NCBI RefSeq assembly: GCF_000498575.2
Contig: NZ_AWSQ01000004.1
Coordinates: 263,527 to 327,526, forward strand
DNA: 64,000 nt
Direction: 5' to 3'
Origin: Pseudomonas taeanensis MS-3
Lineage (GTDB): Bacteria; Pseudomonadota; Gammaproteobacteria; Pseudomonadales; Pseudomonadaceae
The notes under the pieces are model-generated. The model made no database searches. It saw only the letters and a program-made list of their open reading frames with translations, and had not been told where the DNA came from. Of the stretch, positions 15,055 through 27,547 are shown in pieces; within the stretch, counting starts at the first letter, position 1; every line of letters begins with the position of its first letter. The position numbers and the translations under genes are program-made.

Positions 15055-15165
15055 GCTGGGTTAGCGGCGCCTGCAAGTAGCAGCACCGCCCAGCGCGATA
15101 GCGGCAACCACGCAGAACCCATGCTGGCCCCAGCAAACCCGGTCATCCAGACAAGGAGCACAACA

Positions 15166-16050
15166 ATGCAGACAATCGCCTTTATCGGCCTTGGCCACAT
15201 GGGCCTGCCCATGGCCCGCAACCTGCTCAAAGCGGGCTTCAACCTGAAGGTCTTCGACCTGGTGCAGGCCTCGGTAGACGAGCTGGCCAAGGAAGGCGCG
15301 CAAGCCGCCAGCAGCGCCGCCGATGCGGCACTCGGCGCCGACAGCGTGGTGACCATGCTGCCGGCCAGCCGCCACGTCGAAGGCCTGTATCTCGGCGATA
15401 GCGGTCTGCTCTCCGCGCTCAAACCAGGCACCCTGGTGCTGGAGTGCTCGACCATCGCCCCGGAATCCGCACGCAAGGTGCACAAGGCCGCCGCCGAGCG
15501 CGGCATCGAACTGCTCGACGCACCGGTTTCCGGCGGCACCGCGGGCGCAGCTGCCGGCACCCTGACTTTCATGATTGGTGGCGAAGCAGCAGTTCTTGAT
15601 AAGGCCCGGCCGGTCTTCGAGGCCATGGGCAAGAACATCTTCCATGCCGGCCCCGATGGTGCCGGCCAGGTGGCCAAGGTCTGCAACAACCAGGTGCTGG
15701 CGGTGCAGATGATCGCCACCGCAGAAGCCATGGCCCTGGGCGTGGCCAACGGTCTGGATCCGGCCGTGCTGGCCGAGATCATGCGCCAGAGTTCGGGCGG
15801 CAACTGGACCCTGGAGAAATACAACCCCTGGCCCGGGGTGATGGAGAACGCCCCGGCCTCCAAGGGCTACAGCGGCGGTTTCATGGCCGAGTTGATGGCC
15901 AAGGACCTCGGCCTGGCCCAGGAGGCGGCTCAAGTCACCGCCAGCAGCACACCGATGGGCGCCCTGGCCTTGCAGCTGTATCGCCTGCTACTCAAGCAGG
16001 GCAAAGGCCAGAAGGATTTTTCCGTGGTGCAGCAGTTGTTCGTCGAGTAA
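15166..16050 (+). CDS. mmsB: 3-hydroxyisobutyrate dehydrogenase family protein
   Basis: The 294-residue beta-hydroxyacid dehydrogenase opens with the NAD-binding IAFIGLGHMGLPMARNLLKAG. The substrate-binding stretch is LDAPVSGGTAGAAAGTLTFM, and the catalytic-lysine region is GAGQVAKVCNNQVLAVQM (Lys about residue 171). The start at 15166 is preceded by AAGGAG. It would oxidise 3-hydroxyisobutyrate to methylmalonate semialdehyde, the substrate of the mmsA product at the head of the operon. The P. aeruginosa homologue at this position (PA0743) has been described as an NAD-dependent L-serine dehydrogenase, so the mmsB name is provisional. Confidence 0.85.
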   Translation: MQTIAFIGLGHMGLPMARNLLKAGFNLKVFDLVQASVDELAKEGAQAASSAADAALGADSVVTMLPASRHVEGLYLGDSGLLSALKPGTLVLECSTIAPESARKVHKAAAERGIELLDAPVSGGTAGAAAGTLTFMIGGEAAVLDKARPVFEAMGKNIFHAGPDGAGQVAKVCNNQVLAVQMIATAEAMALGVANGLDPAVLAEIMRQSSGGNWTLEKYNPWPGVMENAPASKGYSGGFMAELMAKDLGLAQEAAQVTASSTPMGALALQLYRLLLKQGKGQKDFSVVQQLFVE

Positions 16051-16133
16051 TGCACGCAATAACCATCGCCGCGGACAGCAGCGATGATCGCTGACAGTGA
16101 CCCACTGATTAAAATCGACCATGGCTGACAGCC

Positions 16134-16200: not shown

Positions 16201-16539
16201 ATGTTGTATGTAAAGCGCGATACCTGGGGCAAGCTGCAACGCGTCGAGGCGGCGCCGTTCGACGAGATGAACGGCGAACTGGCCGCGGACAGCCAGGAAG
16301 CCCAGGACTGGTTTGCCAATCAGGCCGTGGAAAACAGCCTGCTGAAGTTGCAGCAGAGCGACCTGGACATGATCCGGGTGCTGGAAGACCTGATTAGCGT
16401 GCTGATCCGCAAGGGTGTTGTGCGTATCACCGATTTGCCCGAAGAGGCCCAGGCCAAGCTGGTAGGGCGCAGCAAGGCCCGTGATGCCTTAGGCGGGCTG
16501 AACCGGCTGATCAATGACGATGAGTCCGAGTTGATCTGA
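16201..16539 (+). CDS. Conserved hypothetical protein
   Basis: The product has 112 residues, acidic and helical, with no signal peptide or membrane segment. It has AAPFDEMNGELAADSQEAQDW, WFANQAVENSLLKLQQSDLD and IRKGVVRITDLPEEAQAKLV. A strong RBS (AAGGAGAGG) precedes ATG. Very similar short proteins occur in Pseudomonas and are sometimes mis-labelled as tryptophan synthase beta-like; nothing in this sequence supports that. It is convergent with the lapD remnant. No function can be assigned. Confidence 0.8.
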   Translation: MLYVKRDTWGKLQRVEAAPFDEMNGELAADSQEAQDWFANQAVENSLLKLQQSDLDMIRVLEDLISVLIRKGVVRITDLPEEAQAKLVGRSKARDALGGLNRLINDDESELI

Positions 16540-16552
16540 TCGACCCCAGCTC

Positions 16553-16784
16553 TTACTGCCAGGGGGCCGGTTCGCCGAACAGACGGCCCTGCACACCTTC
16601 GATCCCCATTGAACGCAACACCTGCCACTCTCCCTCGCTCTCGACCCGCTCGGCAATTGGGCATAGGCGCGCAACTGGTGACTTGCTGCTCGCGTGAGCT
16701 CTCCACGCTCACCAGAAAACTGCCAGTAAAGTTCACCAGCATCAGTACACAGATGGCGATGAACAACTACTTGAACAGTGACGT
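16553..16784 (-). pseudogene. lapD: lapD remnant: N-terminus joined to EAL C-terminus by a large deletion
   Basis: Reading the minus strand from 16784, the frame is ACG-TCA-CTG-TTC-AAG-TAG, i.e. MSLFKQ with the start changed to ACG and Gln6 changed to an amber stop. It continues LFIAICVLMLVNFTGSFLVS and VESSRE, the transmembrane start of LapD. A one-base loss near 16700 shifts the frame (expected ...VNQLRAYAQ). Around 16655-16662 the sequence jumps to the end of an EAL-type domain, IAERVESEGEWQVLRSMGIE and GVQGRLFGEPAPWQ, then TAA (16555-16553). About 570 residues, including the HAMP, GGDEF and most of EAL, are missing relative to a normal LapD of about 650. It lies directly after lapG in the same direction, the usual lapG-lapD order. 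Confidence 0.82.
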
Positions 16785-16806
16785 AAGCGGCTTCTATGGG
16801 CCGGCC

Positions 16807-17529
16807 TCAGGGAAAGCCCTCGGCGCGCATTTTCCTCAATAGATCTTGCCAGCGCGACAACCGCTTACTGTCCCCGACAGACTTGTCGCCGCGACTGCCA
16901 GGGAGCCATAAACCTTCGGCATTGAACGCATAAACCGGCAGCAAATCGCTGCGCTGACTGGAGGGCTGGATGGCGTCGATCAAGTTGTCCAACACCAACG
17001 GCATGGCGTTCGGCTGGGCGTAGTAGGTGACCACCATGTGCGCCTGGTTCAGGCGCAGCGCCTTGACGTAAGTGATGCGCAGCTTCTCGCTCGGCACGCC
17101 GAGTTGGCGCAGGCTGAAGTACTTGGCGATAGCGAAGTCCTCACAGTCTCCCCCGCCCAGCAGCAATGCCTCGACCGGGGTGGCCCAGTAATCCTTGACC
17201 CGCCACAGTTCGATATCATCGCGAAACCGCAGGCGCAGGTTGAAGAACAGATTGACCGCCTTGAGCTGCGCCATTTCATCGGCCCCGACCTGCTCCTGCA
17301 ACAGGCGCTGCCAGTCGTCGATCCGCCCTCGCCCCGCCCCGAGCGGCCCGTATAACTGCTCGGCTCTTTTACTGATGAGGGTGAAATCCCAGTCGGCTTG
17401 CAGCGCACCGACGCCCAGCAATGCGGACAGCAGCAAGACTGACGCTGCAGGCCAGCGACGACACGCACGCAAAGCGTTGAGACGACCCGTCAGCAAGCCG
17501 AGATTTCCATATATCAGGATGATGGCCAT
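16807..17529 (-). CDS. lapG: LapG-type periplasmic cysteine protease
   Basis: This bacterial transglutaminase-like cysteine proteinase (BTLCP/DUF920) cleaves the LapA-type surface adhesin to release biofilm cells. From the ATG at 17529 it has about 240 residues. A hydrophobic export signal (about residues 27-43) is followed by QADWDF. The catalytic triad is visible: Cys129 in GGGDCEDFAIAKYF, His164 in LNQAHMVV, and Asp181 in PLVLDNLID. The start is uncertain (17574 also possible) and no clear RBS is seen. Its normal partner, the c-di-GMP receptor LapD, is a degenerate remnant immediately downstream, so LapG may be uncontrolled unless another LapD exists. Confidence 0.88.
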   Translation of the reverse strand: MAIILIYGNLGLLTGRLNALRACRRWPAASVLLLSALLGVGALQADWDFTLISKRAEQLYGPLGAGRGRIDDWQRLLQEQVGADEMAQLKAVNLFFNLRLRFRDDIELWRVKDYWATPVEALLLGGGDCEDFAIAKYFSLRQLGVPSEKLRITYVKALRLNQAHMVVTYYAQPNAMPLVLDNLIDAIQPSSQRSDLLPVYAFNAEGLWLPGSRGDKSVGDSKRLSRWQDLLRKMRAEGFP

Positions 17530-18047
17530 GGTGCGGGGGCGATGTAAAAAAAACAATCGCCAGAATACTGACACAACTTGAGAGAGCGCCCGAATGCGCG
17601 CCGGCTGGCAACCTCATGGCGCCTGAGCCATGAGACAAGCCACTCAACGCCCGGTCAGCTCAATCGGCACCTCGCTGAAGTCAAAGCAACCAAAGGAAGG
17701 TCATGATATCCAGCAGGTTGCCATCGACCTCGACGACGCCCAGCAGCGCTCCTCTGAGCAGACACTTCCGCCGCTCATCTGGGTGTCTAGGTAGGATTTA
17801 TCGAGGACAATCCAGGTTTACCGCCTGGCATCCAGTGGCCAAGGCGGTGCGCGGCGGACATCAGGTCTTGCTGCCACTTACCGCGTGAGGATGGGCAGAC
17901 AGTTAGCCTCTGACCGGGTCAGCCGCGCCGCACACAATCTGGCCCGACAGCACTGATCTGAACAGATCCAGCCGGAAGATCGCCAGCCGACCCCGTCGCC
18001 CCCAGGGGCTTGTGCGGAGGTTACGCCGACCACGCGTTGGCCATTAG
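17530..18047. other. Non-coding stretch with an unidentified ORF remnant
   Basis: No credible gene is seen. On the minus strand about 17674-17795 there is a short open frame without a start codon ending VVEVDGNLLDIMTFLWLL and stop; it looks like the 3' end of a lost gene but I do not recognise it. The rest shows no motif. Together with the next repeat this leaves about 0.8 kb without a gene beside the lapD/lapG lesion, consistent with local gene decay. Confidence 0.5.
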
Positions 18048-18356
18048 CAGGCCGTTGTAAACTACTGCGCTAGGTTATGCAGCGTTGAAATCGGCCCGGG
18101 ACGCAGCGTCTCAAAATGCTCAATGACAACGCGTACACTCGGCTCGGGCATCCTGCTTCGCCCTACCTCCTGCATCCATGCCGTCGTGCGCTTTTGATTC
18201 GCTACGCTCACCCTGCGGGCCAGCCTCCGGCTGTTACTCCGCCTCGCTGCGTTGCGGCCGATTCGCCTTGTGACCCACAGGGATGTGGGAAATGCCGTTA
18301 CCCGTAGGGAACGGCTACGGCCCTAACCGTCGCTCGCTACATTTTTCAACGACCTG
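18048..18356. repeat. Dispersed intergenic element, copy B (long form)
   Basis: The element begins CAGGCCGTTGTAAACTACTGC and ends ATTTTTCAACGACCTG, i.e. the same terminal inverted repeat as copy C (CAGGTCGTTGAGAAGC). It shares GCGTTGAAATCGGCC, TGCTCAATGACA...CGTACACTC and CGATTCGCCTTG with the other copies but is about 170 bases longer, with extra internal sequence. The outer end abuts the TAA stop of the lipoprotein gene at 18357. Confidence 0.75.
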
Positions 18357-18851
18357 TTAGTTGTGTCGTATATCCATACCGCGCCGCCGATCCCCGCGCG
18401 ATCGGTGGTCACCACGTTGGTCGTGCCGTTGGTACCTCGGTGTACGCTCTTGCGGATCGAAGCGCTGGCCGTTCCAGCCCCGCCGCTGTTGCGTATCACG
18501 ATAGTCGTGGCGACGCTGATCGCGGTGCCCGTCGATGCGATGGCCCGAGCGCCGCTCATGGTTGGAAAAGCGCGCCGGTGGTGCCGGCAGATAGCGGCGC
18601 TGGTCATGCCGTTGTTGGTTGAAATGGCGCGGGTCATGTCGTCGATTATCGAAATGGCGCCTGTCATAACGCCGGTTGTCATAACCGTAATGCCGCGGCG
18701 CAACATAGACCGGATAGCGCTGCACCTGATAGGAGCTGCCGGCGTAATAGCGGTCATGGCCGCGATAAGCATGATCGTAACCGCCGCCGTACACCGCACA
18801 ACCGGTTAGGCTCAGGCCCAGCAGCGCAGCAAGTAAGACTTTGTAGGGCAT
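18357..18851 (-). CDS. Small lipoprotein rich in His, Arg, Tyr and Asp
   Basis: The product has 164 residues. A lipoprotein signal (MPYKVLLAALLGLSLTGCAV) has the lipobox LTGC with Cys18. The mature part is very low in hydrophobic residues and rich in Arg, His, Tyr, Asp and Gln, with imperfect repeats such as RRYDRRHFDNRRHDPRHF and later QRRHDYRDTQQRR. A PAPPARFSNHER stretch separates two halves. No enzymatic domain is visible. The composition suggests a surface or periplasmic polyelectrolyte able to bind metal or anions, but this is only inference. Its stop codon directly touches the dispersed element (copy B). It is a single gene with GGAGGCC upstream of ATG. Confidence 0.7.
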   Translation of the reverse strand: MPYKVLLAALLGLSLTGCAVYGGGYDHAYRGHDRYYAGSSYQVQRYPVYVAPRHYGYDNRRYDRRHFDNRRHDPRHFNQQRHDQRRYLPAPPARFSNHERRSGHRIDGHRDQRRHDYRDTQQRRGWNGQRFDPQERTPRYQRHDQRGDHRSRGDRRRGMDIRHN

Positions 18852-23754: not shown

Positions 23755-23820
23755 CGTAGGAGCCAGCTTGCTGGCGATGCTTTTGCGTCGCCGCTGATCG
23801 CCAGCAAGCTGGCTCCTACA
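23755..23820. repeat. REP element (GTAGGAGCCAGCTTGCTGG type)
   Basis: Near-perfect inverted arms GTAGGAGCCAGCTTGCTGGC and GCCAGCAAGCTGGCTCCTAC with an inner loop. The same sequence, slightly diverged, lies inside the carboxylase gene downstream (26219-26281) and upstream of benK (46153-46208). Confidence 0.9.
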
Positions 23821-23905: not shown

Positions 23906-26900
23906 ATGTTCGACACACTGCTGATCGCCAACCGCGGCGCCATCGCCTGCCGCATCCTGCGTACTCTCCATGAACTGCGCGTAGGCAGCGTGGCCGTGTA
24001 CGCCGAGGCCGACGCCGCCAGCCTGCATATCCAGCAGGCCGACCAGGCCCACAGCCTCGGCGAAGGCCCGGCCGCCAACACCTACCTGGTCGTGGAGAAG
24101 ATTCTCGCCATCGCCAAGGCCAGTGGCGCCACCGCCATCCACCCCGGCTACGGCTTCCTCTCGGAGAACGCTGCCTTCGCCGAAGCTTGCGAAGCGGCCG
24201 GCATCGCCTTCGTCGGCCCGACGCCCGAGCAGTTGCGGGTGTTCGGGCTCAAGCACACCGCCCGCGCCCTGGCCAAGCAGCACGGGGTGCCGATGCTGGA
24301 GGGCACCGAGCTGCTGGAAAGCCTCGAGGCCGCGCTGAGCGCAGGTGAAACTATCGGCTACCCAGTGATGCTGAAGAGTACCGCCGGCGGCGGCGGCATC
24401 GGCATGCGCGTGTGCCACTCGGCCGAGGAGCTGAGTGAGGCCTTCGACGCGGTCAAACGCTTGGGACAGAACAACTTCAGTGACGCCGGCGTGTTTATCG
24501 AGAAGTACATCCAGCGTGCCCGGCACCTGGAGGTGCAGGTATTCGGCGACGGGCGCGGCGAGGTGCTGGCCCTCGGCGTACGCGACTGCTCGGTGCAGCG
24601 GCGCAACCAGAAGGTGCTGGAGGAAACCCCGGCGCCGAACCTGCCCGCCGGCATGGCCGAACAACTGTGCGCCGCGGCGATCACGCTGGCCAAGGCGGTC
24701 GACTACCGCAGCGCCGGCACCGTCGAATTCGTCTACGACAGCGCGGCCGAGCGCTTCTATTTCTTAGAAGTGAACACCCGCCTGCAGGTCGAGCACGGCG
24801 TCACCGAGCAGGTGTGGGGCGTCGACCTGGTGCGCTGGATGATCGAACTGGCGGCCGGCGACCTGGCCCCGCTGAGCGAGCTGGGCAAAGGCCTCACGCC
24901 CAACGGCCACGCGATCCAGGCACGCCTGTATGCCGAAGACCCGGGCCGCGACTTCCAGCCCAGCCCCGGCCTGCTCACCGCCGTCGAGTTCCCCCAAGCC
25001 GATGGCCAGGCGCTGCGCATCGACACTTGGGTCGAGGCCGGCTGCGAGATCCCGCCCTACTTCGACCCGATGCTCGCCAAGCTGATCGCCTGGGCGCCGA
25101 GCCGCGATCAGGCCAGCCTGGCGCTGGATCAGGCCCTGGCCGATACCCTGCTGTATGGCGTGGAAAGCAACCGCGACTACCTGCGGCAGATCCTGCTCGA
25201 CGCGCCCTTCGCCAGCGGCAGCCCCTGGACCCGCTGCCTGGAAGGACTGGTGTACCGTGCCAACACCTTCGAAGTGCTGGCCGCCGGCACCCAGACCACG
25301 GTGCAGGACTACCCCGGCCGCCTTGGCTACTGGGCCGTCGGCGTACCGCCGTCGGGGCCGATGGACGACCGCGCCCTGCGCCTGGGCAACCGCCTGCTGG
25401 GTAATGAACAAGGCGCCGCCGCCCTGGAAATCACCATGAGCGGACCGAACCTGCGCTTCAACACCGATGCACTGGTGGCGGTGACCGGCGCGGTGATTCC
25501 GCTACTGCTCGACGGTGAACCACGCCCCATGAACACCGCGCTGCTGATCAAGGCCGGCAGCAGCCTCAGCCTGGGCAGCATCGCCGGCAGCGGCGCGCGC
25601 AGCTACCTGTGCCTGCGCGGCGGCCTGCAGGTGCCGGATTACCTGGGCAGCAAGAGCACCTTCACCCTCGGCCAGTTCGGCGGCCACGGCGGCCGCGCCC
25701 TGCGCGCCGGCGATGTGTTGCACCTTTTACCTCTCGCCGAGGCGCATGCCGGCGCACAACTGCCCACAGAACTGTGCGAGCCGTTACCGGCCGTGCGCGA
25801 GATCCGCGTGATCTACGGCCCCCACGGCGCCCCGGAATATTTCACCGAGGGCTACATCGACACCTTCTTCGCCACCGCCTGGGAAGTGCACTTCAACTCC
25901 AGCCGCACCGGCGTGCGCCTGATCGGGCCCAAGCCGGAATGGGTACGCGACAGCGGCGGTGAGGCCGGCCTGCACCCCTCGAATATTCACGACAACCCCT
26001 ACGCCATCGGCGCGGTGGACTTTACCGGCGACATGCCGGTGATCCTCGGCCCGGACGGCCCCAGTCTGGGCGGCTTCGTTTGCCCGGTGAGCATCATCGA
26101 GGCCGACCTGTGGCAGCTCGGCCAGCTCAAAGCCGGCGATAAGGTCAGGTTTGCCCCGGTGGATATCGCCACGGCAAGGACCTTGGCCAAAGCCAAAAAC
26201 CTTGAATGTGCAAACCTATGTAGGAGCCAGCTTGCTGGCGATCCTGCGGTATCCCTGATCGCGAGCAAGCTCGCGCCTACACAAGCAAATGGCCTCCCCT
26301 CGCCCATCGTCCTCGACATCGGCCAAGGCGACTGCCGCCTGGTCGCCCGCCTGTCCGGCGACACTCACCTGCTGCTGGAAATCGGCGAGCCGGAACTGGA
26401 CCTGGTGCTGCGCTTTCGTGGCCACGCACTGATGCAGGCGCTGGAGGCGAAGAGCCTCGACGGTGTCATTGATCTCACTCCGGGCATCCGCTCGCTGCAG
26501 CTGCACTACCTGCCGGAAACCCTGGCACTCAATGACCTGCTCGGCATAGTCGCCGGTGAATGGGACGCGGTGTGCGCCGCCCAGGATCTCAAGGTGCCGT
26601 CGCGTATCGTTCACCTGCCGCTGTCCTGGGACGATCCGGCCTGCCAGTTGGCCATCGACAAGTACATGACCACGGTGCGCAAGGACGCCCCCTGGTGCCC
26701 GAGCAATCTGGAGTTCATTCGCCGGATCAACGACCTGCCGAATCTCGACGAGGTCTACCGCACCGTATTCGAGGCCAGCTACCTGGTGATGGGCCTGGGC
26801 GACGTCTACCTCGGCGCGCCGGTGGCCACTCCGCTGGACCCGCGTCATCGCCTGGTCACCACCAAGTACAACCCGGCCCGCACCTGGACCGCGGAGAACT

Positions 26901-27547
26901 CGGTGGGCATCGGCGGCGCCTACATGTGCGTGTACGGCATGGAAGGCCCGGGCGGCTACCAGTTCGTCGGCCGCACCCTGCAGATGTGGAACCGCTACCG
27001 CGAAGTGGCCGCCTTCGACGGCAAACCCTGGCTGCTGCGCTTCTTCGATCAGATCCGCTTCTACCCGGTGAGCGCCGAGGAACTGCTGCGCATCCGCCGC
27101 GATTTCCCCCTCGGTCGCTACGACTTGCGCATCGAGCACAGCGAACTGCACCTGGCCGACTACCAGGACTTCCTCGCTGCAGAGGCCGAGGGCATCGCCG
27201 CCTTCCGCCACCAGCAACGCGGCGCCTTCGCCGCCGAACGGCAGCGCTGGATCGACTCTGGCCAGGCGCACTTCGACAGCGAGGAGGTGGCAGTCGAGAT
27301 TGGCCAGGACGTTGCCCTCGGTACCGGCCAGCACGGCATCGACAGCCATATCGCCGGCAACCTCTGGCAGGTGCAAGTGGCGGTCGGCGACCGAGTCAAA
27401 GCCGGCGAGACGCTGGTGATTCTCGAGTCGATGAAGATGGAGATCCCGCTCACCGCGCCGCGTGACGGCCTGGTTCGGGAAGTCCGCGTGCAGCCAGGCT
27501 CGCCGGTGCGCGCCGGCCAGTGCGTGGTGGTGCTCGAAGAAGCCTGA
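23906..27547 (+). CDS. Urea carboxylase / guanidine carboxylase (biotin-dependent)
   Basis: The 1213-residue multidomain enzyme has a biotin carboxylase part (residues 1-450; GGGGIGMRVCHS ATP-grasp loop, EVNTRLQVEHGVTE), an allophanate hydrolase subunit 2/KipA-like part (about 455-765; GTQTTVQDYPGRLGYWAVG), a subunit 1/KipI-like part (about 800-1020) and a C-terminal biotinyl domain with Lys1177 in ESMKMEI. It carboxylates urea or, in riboswitch-linked operons, guanidine to carboxyguanidine. An REP element is inserted in frame in the linker between the two carboxyltransferase halves (residues about 771-792). It is followed by allophanate hydrolase, and upstream are UCA1/2 and the ABC importer. 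The start has GAGGGAAACA upstream. Confidence 0.93.
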   Translation: MFDTLLIANRGAIACRILRTLHELRVGSVAVYAEADAASLHIQQADQAHSLGEGPAANTYLVVEKILAIAKASGATAIHPGYGFLSENAAFAEACEAAGIAFVGPTPEQLRVFGLKHTARALAKQHGVPMLEGTELLESLEAALSAGETIGYPVMLKSTAGGGGIGMRVCHSAEELSEAFDAVKRLGQNNFSDAGVFIEKYIQRARHLEVQVFGDGRGEVLALGVRDCSVQRRNQKVLEETPAPNLPAGMAEQLCAAAITLAKAVDYRSAGTVEFVYDSAAERFYFLEVNTRLQVEHGVTEQVWGVDLVRWMIELAAGDLAPLSELGKGLTPNGHAIQARLYAEDPGRDFQPSPGLLTAVEFPQADGQALRIDTWVEAGCEIPPYFDPMLAKLIAWAPSRDQASLALDQALADTLLYGVESNRDYLRQILLDAPFASGSPWTRCLEGLVYRANTFEVLAAGTQTTVQDYPGRLGYWAVGVPPSGPMDDRALRLGNRLLGNEQGAAALEITMSGPNLRFNTDALVAVTGAVIPLLLDGEPRPMNTALLIKAGSSLSLGSIAGSGARSYLCLRGGLQVPDYLGSKSTFTLGQFGGHGGRALRAGDVLHLLPLAEAHAGAQLPTELCEPLPAVREIRVIYGPHGAPEYFTEGYIDTFFATAWEVHFNSSRTGVRLIGPKPEWVRDSGGEAGLHPSNIHDNPYAIGAVDFTGDMPVILGPDGPSLGGFVCPVSIIEADLWQLGQLKAGDKVRFAPVDIATARTLAKAKNLECANLCRSQLAGDPAVSLIASKLAPTQANGLPSPIVLDIGQGDCRLVARLSGDTHLLLEIGEPELDLVLRFRGHALMQALEAKSLDGVIDLTPGIRSLQLHYLPETLALNDLLGIVAGEWDAVCAAQDLKVPSRIVHLPLSWDDPACQLAIDKYMTTVRKDAPWCPSNLEFIRRINDLPNLDEVYRTVFEASYLVMGLGDVYLGAPVATPLDPRHRLVTTKYNPARTWTAENSVGIGGAYMCVYGMEGPGGYQFVGRTLQMWNRYREVAAFDGKPWLLRFFDQIRFYPVSAEELLRIRRDFPLGRYDLRIEHSELHLADYQDFLAAEAEGIAAFRHQQRGAFAAERQRWIDSGQAHFDSEEVAVEIGQDVALGTGQHGIDSHIAGNLWQVQVAVGDRVKAGETLVILESMKMEIPLTAPRDGLVREVRVQPGSPVRAGQCVVVLEEA
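26219..26281. repeat. REP element inserted in frame in the carboxylase coding sequence
   Basis: GTAGGAGCCAGCTTGCTGGC ... GAGCAAGCTCGCGCCTAC is a full GTAGGAGCC-type REP within the gene. It is translated as CRSQLAGDPAVSLIASKLAPT without a stop or frameshift, between ECANL and QANGLPSPIVLD. It interrupts the carboxyltransferase linker. Confidence 0.9.

Follow-up and report, generated by a model that had tools for sequence, protein, structure and literature searches.

According to the accessible sections of the papers cited here, a conserved GWxQ loop (W125) lets LapD hold the protease LapG when c-di-GMP is high, and P. fluorescens and Legionella proteins form mixed LapG-LapD output complexes that depend on this Trp (PMC4359373). 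LapG enzymes cut di-alanine sites of different adhesins (PMC6890996; PMC13090378), and in several organisms a single LapD/LapG pair governs two or more adhesins (PMC13090378; for V. cholerae, PMC6890996). The lapD mutants of P. putida are biofilm-deficient, and the authors interpreted plasmid-borne overexpression of LapG as going beyond the capacity of LapD to hold the protease (PMC4694147). For Yersinia and Shigella, pseudogenes are described among other c-di-GMP genes (PMC10333796); in the literature searched, as far as its accessible text goes, we found no report of a lapD pseudogene beside lapG.

Here, we analysed such a locus in a stretch of 64,000 nucleotides (the window), which corresponds to positions 263527-327526 of contig C4 (G000:C4) of Pseudomonas taeanensis MS-3. 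The genome comprises 5.45 Mb in 18 contigs with an estimated contamination of 2.78%, and this single assembly of one strain is the basis of all lesion calls. We named the cluster of the window Lap1, the paralogous cluster on contig C9 Lap2, and the three LapG-type genes of the genome LapG1, LapG2 and LapG3; the contig of the window is 842 kb and that of Lap2 486 kb long. A lapG homologue search placed the relatives of the window in Pseudomonas, and relatives were drawn by DNA search across 398 sampled genomes of the genus. LapG and LapD were called by the NCBIfam equivalogs NF045674 (320 bits) and NF045673 (1020 bits), respectively.

The lapD1 remnant and the lapG1 gene

The features of the locus, in window coordinates, are as follows.

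15157 to 16050, plus strand: mmsB-like 3-hydroxyisobutyrate dehydrogenase, bordering the ancestral Lap1 cluster on its other side (Pfam; 97% identical in G259)
16087 to 16107, no strand: scar where G259 has lapC1-lapB1-lapE1-lapA1 (comparison with G259; lapC1-mmsB adjacency)
16201 to 16539, plus strand: gene of 112 aa beside lapD, kept here (adjoins lapD in 23 of 27 loci)
16553 to 16784, minus strand: lapD1 remnant, 232 bp (direct reading and comparison with G259)
16657 to 16658, no strand: internal deletion junction of lapD1, with 1-bp ambiguity (two BLAST segments meet)
16807 to 17529, minus strand: lapG1, intact periplasmic BTLCP cysteine protease LapG of cluster 1 (NF045674, PF06035, identity to G259)

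We found that lapD1 had lost its start codon, was cut short by a stop at codon 6 and contained a frameshift of one base, two of its lesions being single-base substitutions. What survived was a piece of about 127 bp from the N-terminal region, followed by the final 34 codons with the stop. These two parts aligned to the intact 644-aa LapD of G259, a relative, with 89% identity at residues 2-38 and 97% at residues 611-644, a match not due to chance, and the homology to LapD claimed in the earlier note stands. The flanks of the junction were colinear with the DNA of G259, and 1,701 bp were missing in the DNA alignment. In place of a full LapD_MoxY_N, HAMP, GGDEF and EAL frame, the window locus held 232 bp with several lesions, and a PF16448 search of this locus gave no match at E 0.001.

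The adjoining lapG1 frame runs on the minus strand from an ATG start at 17529 to 16807. LapG1 passed the equivalog cut-off (377.6 vs 320 bits) and matched PF06035 (58.5 vs a threshold of 27), in agreement with the earlier reading of a lapD pseudogene beside an intact lapG, and it was 94.6% identical to the LapG1 of G259 and 69% identical to the P. fluorescens LapG of solved structure (4u65). We take the Cys of the P. fluorescens LapG triad to be position 135. With this numbering, the residues D111, A169, Y176, V205 and Y206 named in the accessible text of PMC4359373 were placed correctly. The retention of the Cys-His-Asp triad, also part of the earlier note, was confirmed by the alignment to 4u65, in which Cys, His and Asp were kept at aligned positions 135, 170 and 187, together with the calcium-site positions D111, D134 and E136. 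A calcium role for the Asp and Glu on either side of the Cys is based, in the available portion of PMC13090378, on D316/E318 of DvhG. LapG1 and LapG2 were only 59% identical; they shared the four interface positions probed in the part of PMC4359373 at hand, and LapG3 differed at one of them.

About 400 bp upstream of lapG1 (18016-18417) did not align to G259, and pieces of this stretch gave 68 matches in the genome, their own place included; the stretch appears to be pieced together from dispersed repeats, as a mosaic. A repeat search within 17500-18450 found no repeat of 16 bp or more inside that stretch. Elsewhere in the window, a palindromic element lies at 26219 to about 26280 within an open reading frame of 1213 aa (23906-27547) whose frame it leaves unbroken, and one arm matches a copy at 23756-23819; presumably it is a REP-like element. 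Five plasmid records matched the region: in three of them lapG, alone or together with lapD, was matched distantly (66-70%), and in the other two the match was 49 bp long.

Losses from Lap1 and a complete second cluster

The earlier note had called for comparison with a relative carrying a full lapD, and G259, the closest relative found in the 398 genomes, served this purpose: its DNA was 94% identical over mmsB, 93% over lapG and 89-95% in longer blocks, and its intact lapD1 shows the extent of the deletion in that gene. The G259 locus (L110) reads lapG1-lapD1 (644 aa)-112-aa gene-lapA1-lapE1-lapB1-lapC1-mmsB, and G259 also has Lap2 genes and LapG3. Compared with it, the interval from the 112-aa gene to mmsB was about 8.0 kb shorter in the window, a figure measured against a G259 lapA1 copy with a 98-bp run of N. 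The true loss may be larger, because the lapA1 open frames of other relatives are longer (4,126 codons in G380, 4,807 in G241 and 5,549 in G184). No adhesin with a retention module and no lapEBC, as in a complete Lap operon, were present at the window locus.

The gene lapC1 adjoined mmsB in 15 of the 19 relatives with fetched mmsB loci and was absent in the stretch seen for G137, G257, G153 and G302. The state of the window is therefore a loss, and an ancestral window state followed by gene gain in the relatives was ruled out by the same adjacency. A whole-genome search found no Lap1 lapA, lapE, lapB or lapC elsewhere in the genome, which rules out that the adhesin and secretion genes had moved; the 112-aa gene, found at the locus itself, excepted, the long matches to Lap1 genes elsewhere were Lap2 genes at 67-74%, and the others were shorter than 125 bp. 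The comparison of these sequences shows that the ancestral cluster was mmsB-lapC1-lapB1-lapE1-lapA1-112-aa gene-lapD1-lapG1, and that this lineage lost the adhesin, its genes for type I secretion and the greater part of lapD1; lapG1 and the 112-aa gene stayed. Contrary to the premise of the earlier note, which had noticed neither the absence of about 8 kb nor the second cluster, LapD was thus not lost alone.

A near full-length LapD match directly followed lapG in all 27 loci checked (L009-L035, taken from 80 lapG loci; they overlap with the 398-genome panel and are not independent of it), and the 112-aa gene stood beside lapD in 23 of them. Neither Pfam nor NCBIfam matched this gene at E 0.001; it may belong to the Lap neighbourhood as a component still without a name. 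A relative of it, 44-52% identical, was a neighbour of lapD2 in G137, G193, G290 and G302; in G184, it adjoined lapG2.

Lap2 was complete on contig C9, with lapC, lapB, lapE, lapA (retention module and cleavage site), lapD and lapG; lapC2, lapB2 and lapE2 lie at L128:13138-18044, and lapA2, lapD2 and lapG2 at L004. LapD2 is 648 aa long (L004:7254-9200), scored 1061.9 vs the LapD cut-off of 1020 bits and carries the LapG-docking GWxQ loop as GWEQ with W125; the genome's one PF16448 (LapD N-domain) match was on C9. The retention module of lapA2 (130.2 vs 50 bits) likewise occurred once in the genome, on C9. The LapA-type adhesin with a TAAG site that the earlier note had proposed to look for is also found here: LapA2 holds TAAG at residues 119-122, counted from L004:495, a putative substrate site for LapG. 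A third LapG-like gene stands alone at C9:421900 and scored 277.4 bits, below the LapG cut-off. This brings the genome to three LapG-type genes, with a single LapD and a single adhesin that carries a retention module. Given the complete Lap2, the events at the window locus amount to a rather commonplace loss of a duplicate.

The broken lapD could be a sequencing or assembly error, or the Lap2 genes could be contamination, given one assembly with 2.78% estimated contamination and two lesions that are single-base substitutions. However, the two absences are separate, of kilobase scale and far from the ends of an 842-kb contig, and their flanks are colinear; the missing genes were found nowhere else in the genome, and the Lap2 genes diverge from G259 to the same order as the window genes (LapD2 93% and LapE2 98% of residues). 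We consider such an artefact highly improbable.

The full-length LapD2 also rules out a genome without LapD and is the very finding, a full-length lapD elsewhere, that the earlier note had named as speaking against it; its statement that losing LapD alone should leave LapG active is not supported here. LapG1 could still be uncontrolled without LapD1, so that the cell sheds its adhesin and disperses easily: at least two LapGs face one LapD here, and in the accessible part of PMC4694147 the lapD mutants of P. putida are biofilm-deficient. We regard such uncontrolled shedding as unlikely and give it little weight, since LapD2 is of full length with its LapG-binding loop, LapD and LapG of different genera form mixed complexes (PMC4359373, accessible part), and LapA1, the adhesin of the Lap1 cluster, is gone.

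lapG without lapD among the relatives and selection on lapG1

The pairing of lapG with lapD was surveyed in 55 genomes, the window's genome and 54 picked from the DNA search for a close mmsB. Sixty-six LapG genes scored above the cut-off, a count that excludes nine LapG-like genes of 265-320 bits, all without LapD nearby, with lower scores left unclassified, and 64 of the 66 had a LapD within 1.5 kb. The two exceptions were lapG1 of the window and lapG2 of G184, and both genomes have a LapD elsewhere. In G184, Lap2 kept lapA2 and lapG2 without lapD2 (L133:15637-16779); the neighbourhood of its lapG2 held no recognisable scrap of lapD2 (best E 0.29), with about 70 bp between the lapG2 match and that of the next gene. 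This genome also carries a Lap1 lapG-lapD pair. Conversely, one LapD of 65, in G092, was without an above-cut-off LapG; at G092:C5:4221-4974, an open LapD frame (657 aa) was observed next to a LapG fragment with an internal stop.

Other relatives kept the adhesin of one cluster without the lapG and lapD of that cluster. In G108 (L138) and G193 (L136), the Lap1 adhesin and at least some secretion genes were kept without lapG and lapD, G193 having no lapE1 match; in G241 (L141), the same was found for the Lap2 adhesin and at least some secretion genes. This suggests that the adhesins in G108, G193 and G241 without a pair of their own are served by the other pair. These partial clusters and the lone lapG2 of G184 indicate that duplicate Lap clusters are lost piecemeal. 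No Lap1-type LapG was found, by score, in 6 of the 19 relatives, of which G137, G108, G193 and G302 also lacked it by identity and G257 and G153 by score alone.

The earlier note had read the several lesions of lapD1 as long-standing decay. However, they were absent from G259 and are therefore younger than the split from it. On the window branch, the 69 surviving codons of lapD1 that were compared showed three non-synonymous changes, two of them disabling, and five synonymous ones, with one change unassigned. Three non-synonymous changes of eight, against about six expected without constraint (binomial P of about 0.02, in a small sample), leave no need for a long decay.

For lapG1, dN/dS between the window's genome and G259 was 0.12, and 0.08 for the mature part. 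Values in the same range were obtained for lapD2 (0.12), lapG2 (0.17), lapG3 (0.13) and the 112-aa gene (0.14), and lower ones than lapG1 for mmsB (0.06), lapE2 (0.03) and a nearby substrate-binding protein (0.01). Branch changes in lapG1 were polarised by majority vote of 12 outgroup sequences, with tied votes (about 2 of 53) dropped. In its mature part, the window branch carried 7 non-synonymous and 20 synonymous changes (P of about 3e-8 vs neutrality). For the G259 branch, the counts were 5 and 11, not distinguishable from those of the window branch (Fisher P of 0.74). By these counts lapG1 looks constrained, and the constraint may be older than the loss of lapD1, so it is no proof of present function.

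These data bear on the main rival reading, an idle LapG1 that has not yet decayed: a bystander being lost, with no present role since LapG2 does the work. The piecemeal loss of Lap1 in those six relatives, the youth of the lapD1 lesions and the presence of LapG2 and LapG3 in the genome speak for it. Nevertheless, LapG1 is of full length with its catalytic and calcium-site residues, and its branch is as constrained as that of G259, which still has LapD1. We hold a bystander to be possible, though rather unlikely.

A protease probably shared between clusters, and comparison with known systems

On the sequence evidence, we favour the reading that the window holds the remains of one of two Lap systems, and that LapG1 is now probably shared into Lap2 under LapD2. 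The loss of lapD1 would be tolerated since LapD2 could hold LapG proteases generally via the conserved GWxQ loop. LapG1, presumably still secreted and active, would cleave LapA2 at TAAG when c-di-GMP is low and would be held by LapD2 when c-di-GMP is high. The net effect would be more LapG per LapD (two or three LapG to one LapD), which would shift the threshold of release and not lead to unchecked release.

A broader idea, that in genomes with two clusters the loss of lapD with lapG kept is a way to retune adhesion, is doubtful, and we find it on balance improbable. If true, several LapGs would compete for one LapD, so more c-di-GMP would be needed to hold the adhesin on the surface, and two cases would have arisen independently, in the window's genome by loss of lapD1 and in G184 by loss of lapD2.

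The locus shows how duplicated c-di-GMP adhesin systems fall apart and which pieces survive, in this case a protease that lacks both the receptor and the substrate of its cluster. An active orphan LapG would make the locus a natural experiment on cross-talk among Lap paralogues, and on whether the LapG:LapD ratio sets the threshold of detachment. The locus also calls for caution, in that no phenotype should be read from one broken lapD without a view of the rest of the genome.

Compared with the Lap system of P. fluorescens and P. putida, the window is alike in the ancestral set of lapC, B, E, A, D and G, in a LapG1 69% identical to 4u65 with the catalytic and calcium-site residues, and in that the broken gene is lapD. 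It differs in that the adhesin, the secretion genes and the LapD of the cluster are missing, and any control would come from the second cluster. The control of P. fluorescens LapA/MapA and of V. cholerae FrhA/CraA by one LapD/LapG pair is similar in serving the adhesin of another locus, as we infer for LapG1; those systems have more adhesins than proteases, whereas here three LapG-type genes accompany one LapD and one adhesin. The lapG-lapD pair PA1433/PA1434 (LapD/LapG) of P. aeruginosa, which acts with CdrA, resembles the ancestral pair, and the level of LapG vs LapD matters for release there (PMC4694147, accessible part); unlike the window, it is intact and works with a type Vb adhesin, and the same part of that paper mentions no degraded duplicate. 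Dvh of Desulfovibrio vulgaris, with DvhG and the receptor DvhD, likewise encodes no true LapD in the operon of its LapG-type protease, but DvhD replaces LapD there, whereas the window has no replacement receptor beside lapG. Each element of the locus is of a known kind, and its mild interest lies in the surviving orphan protease and in G184 as a second case in the other cluster.
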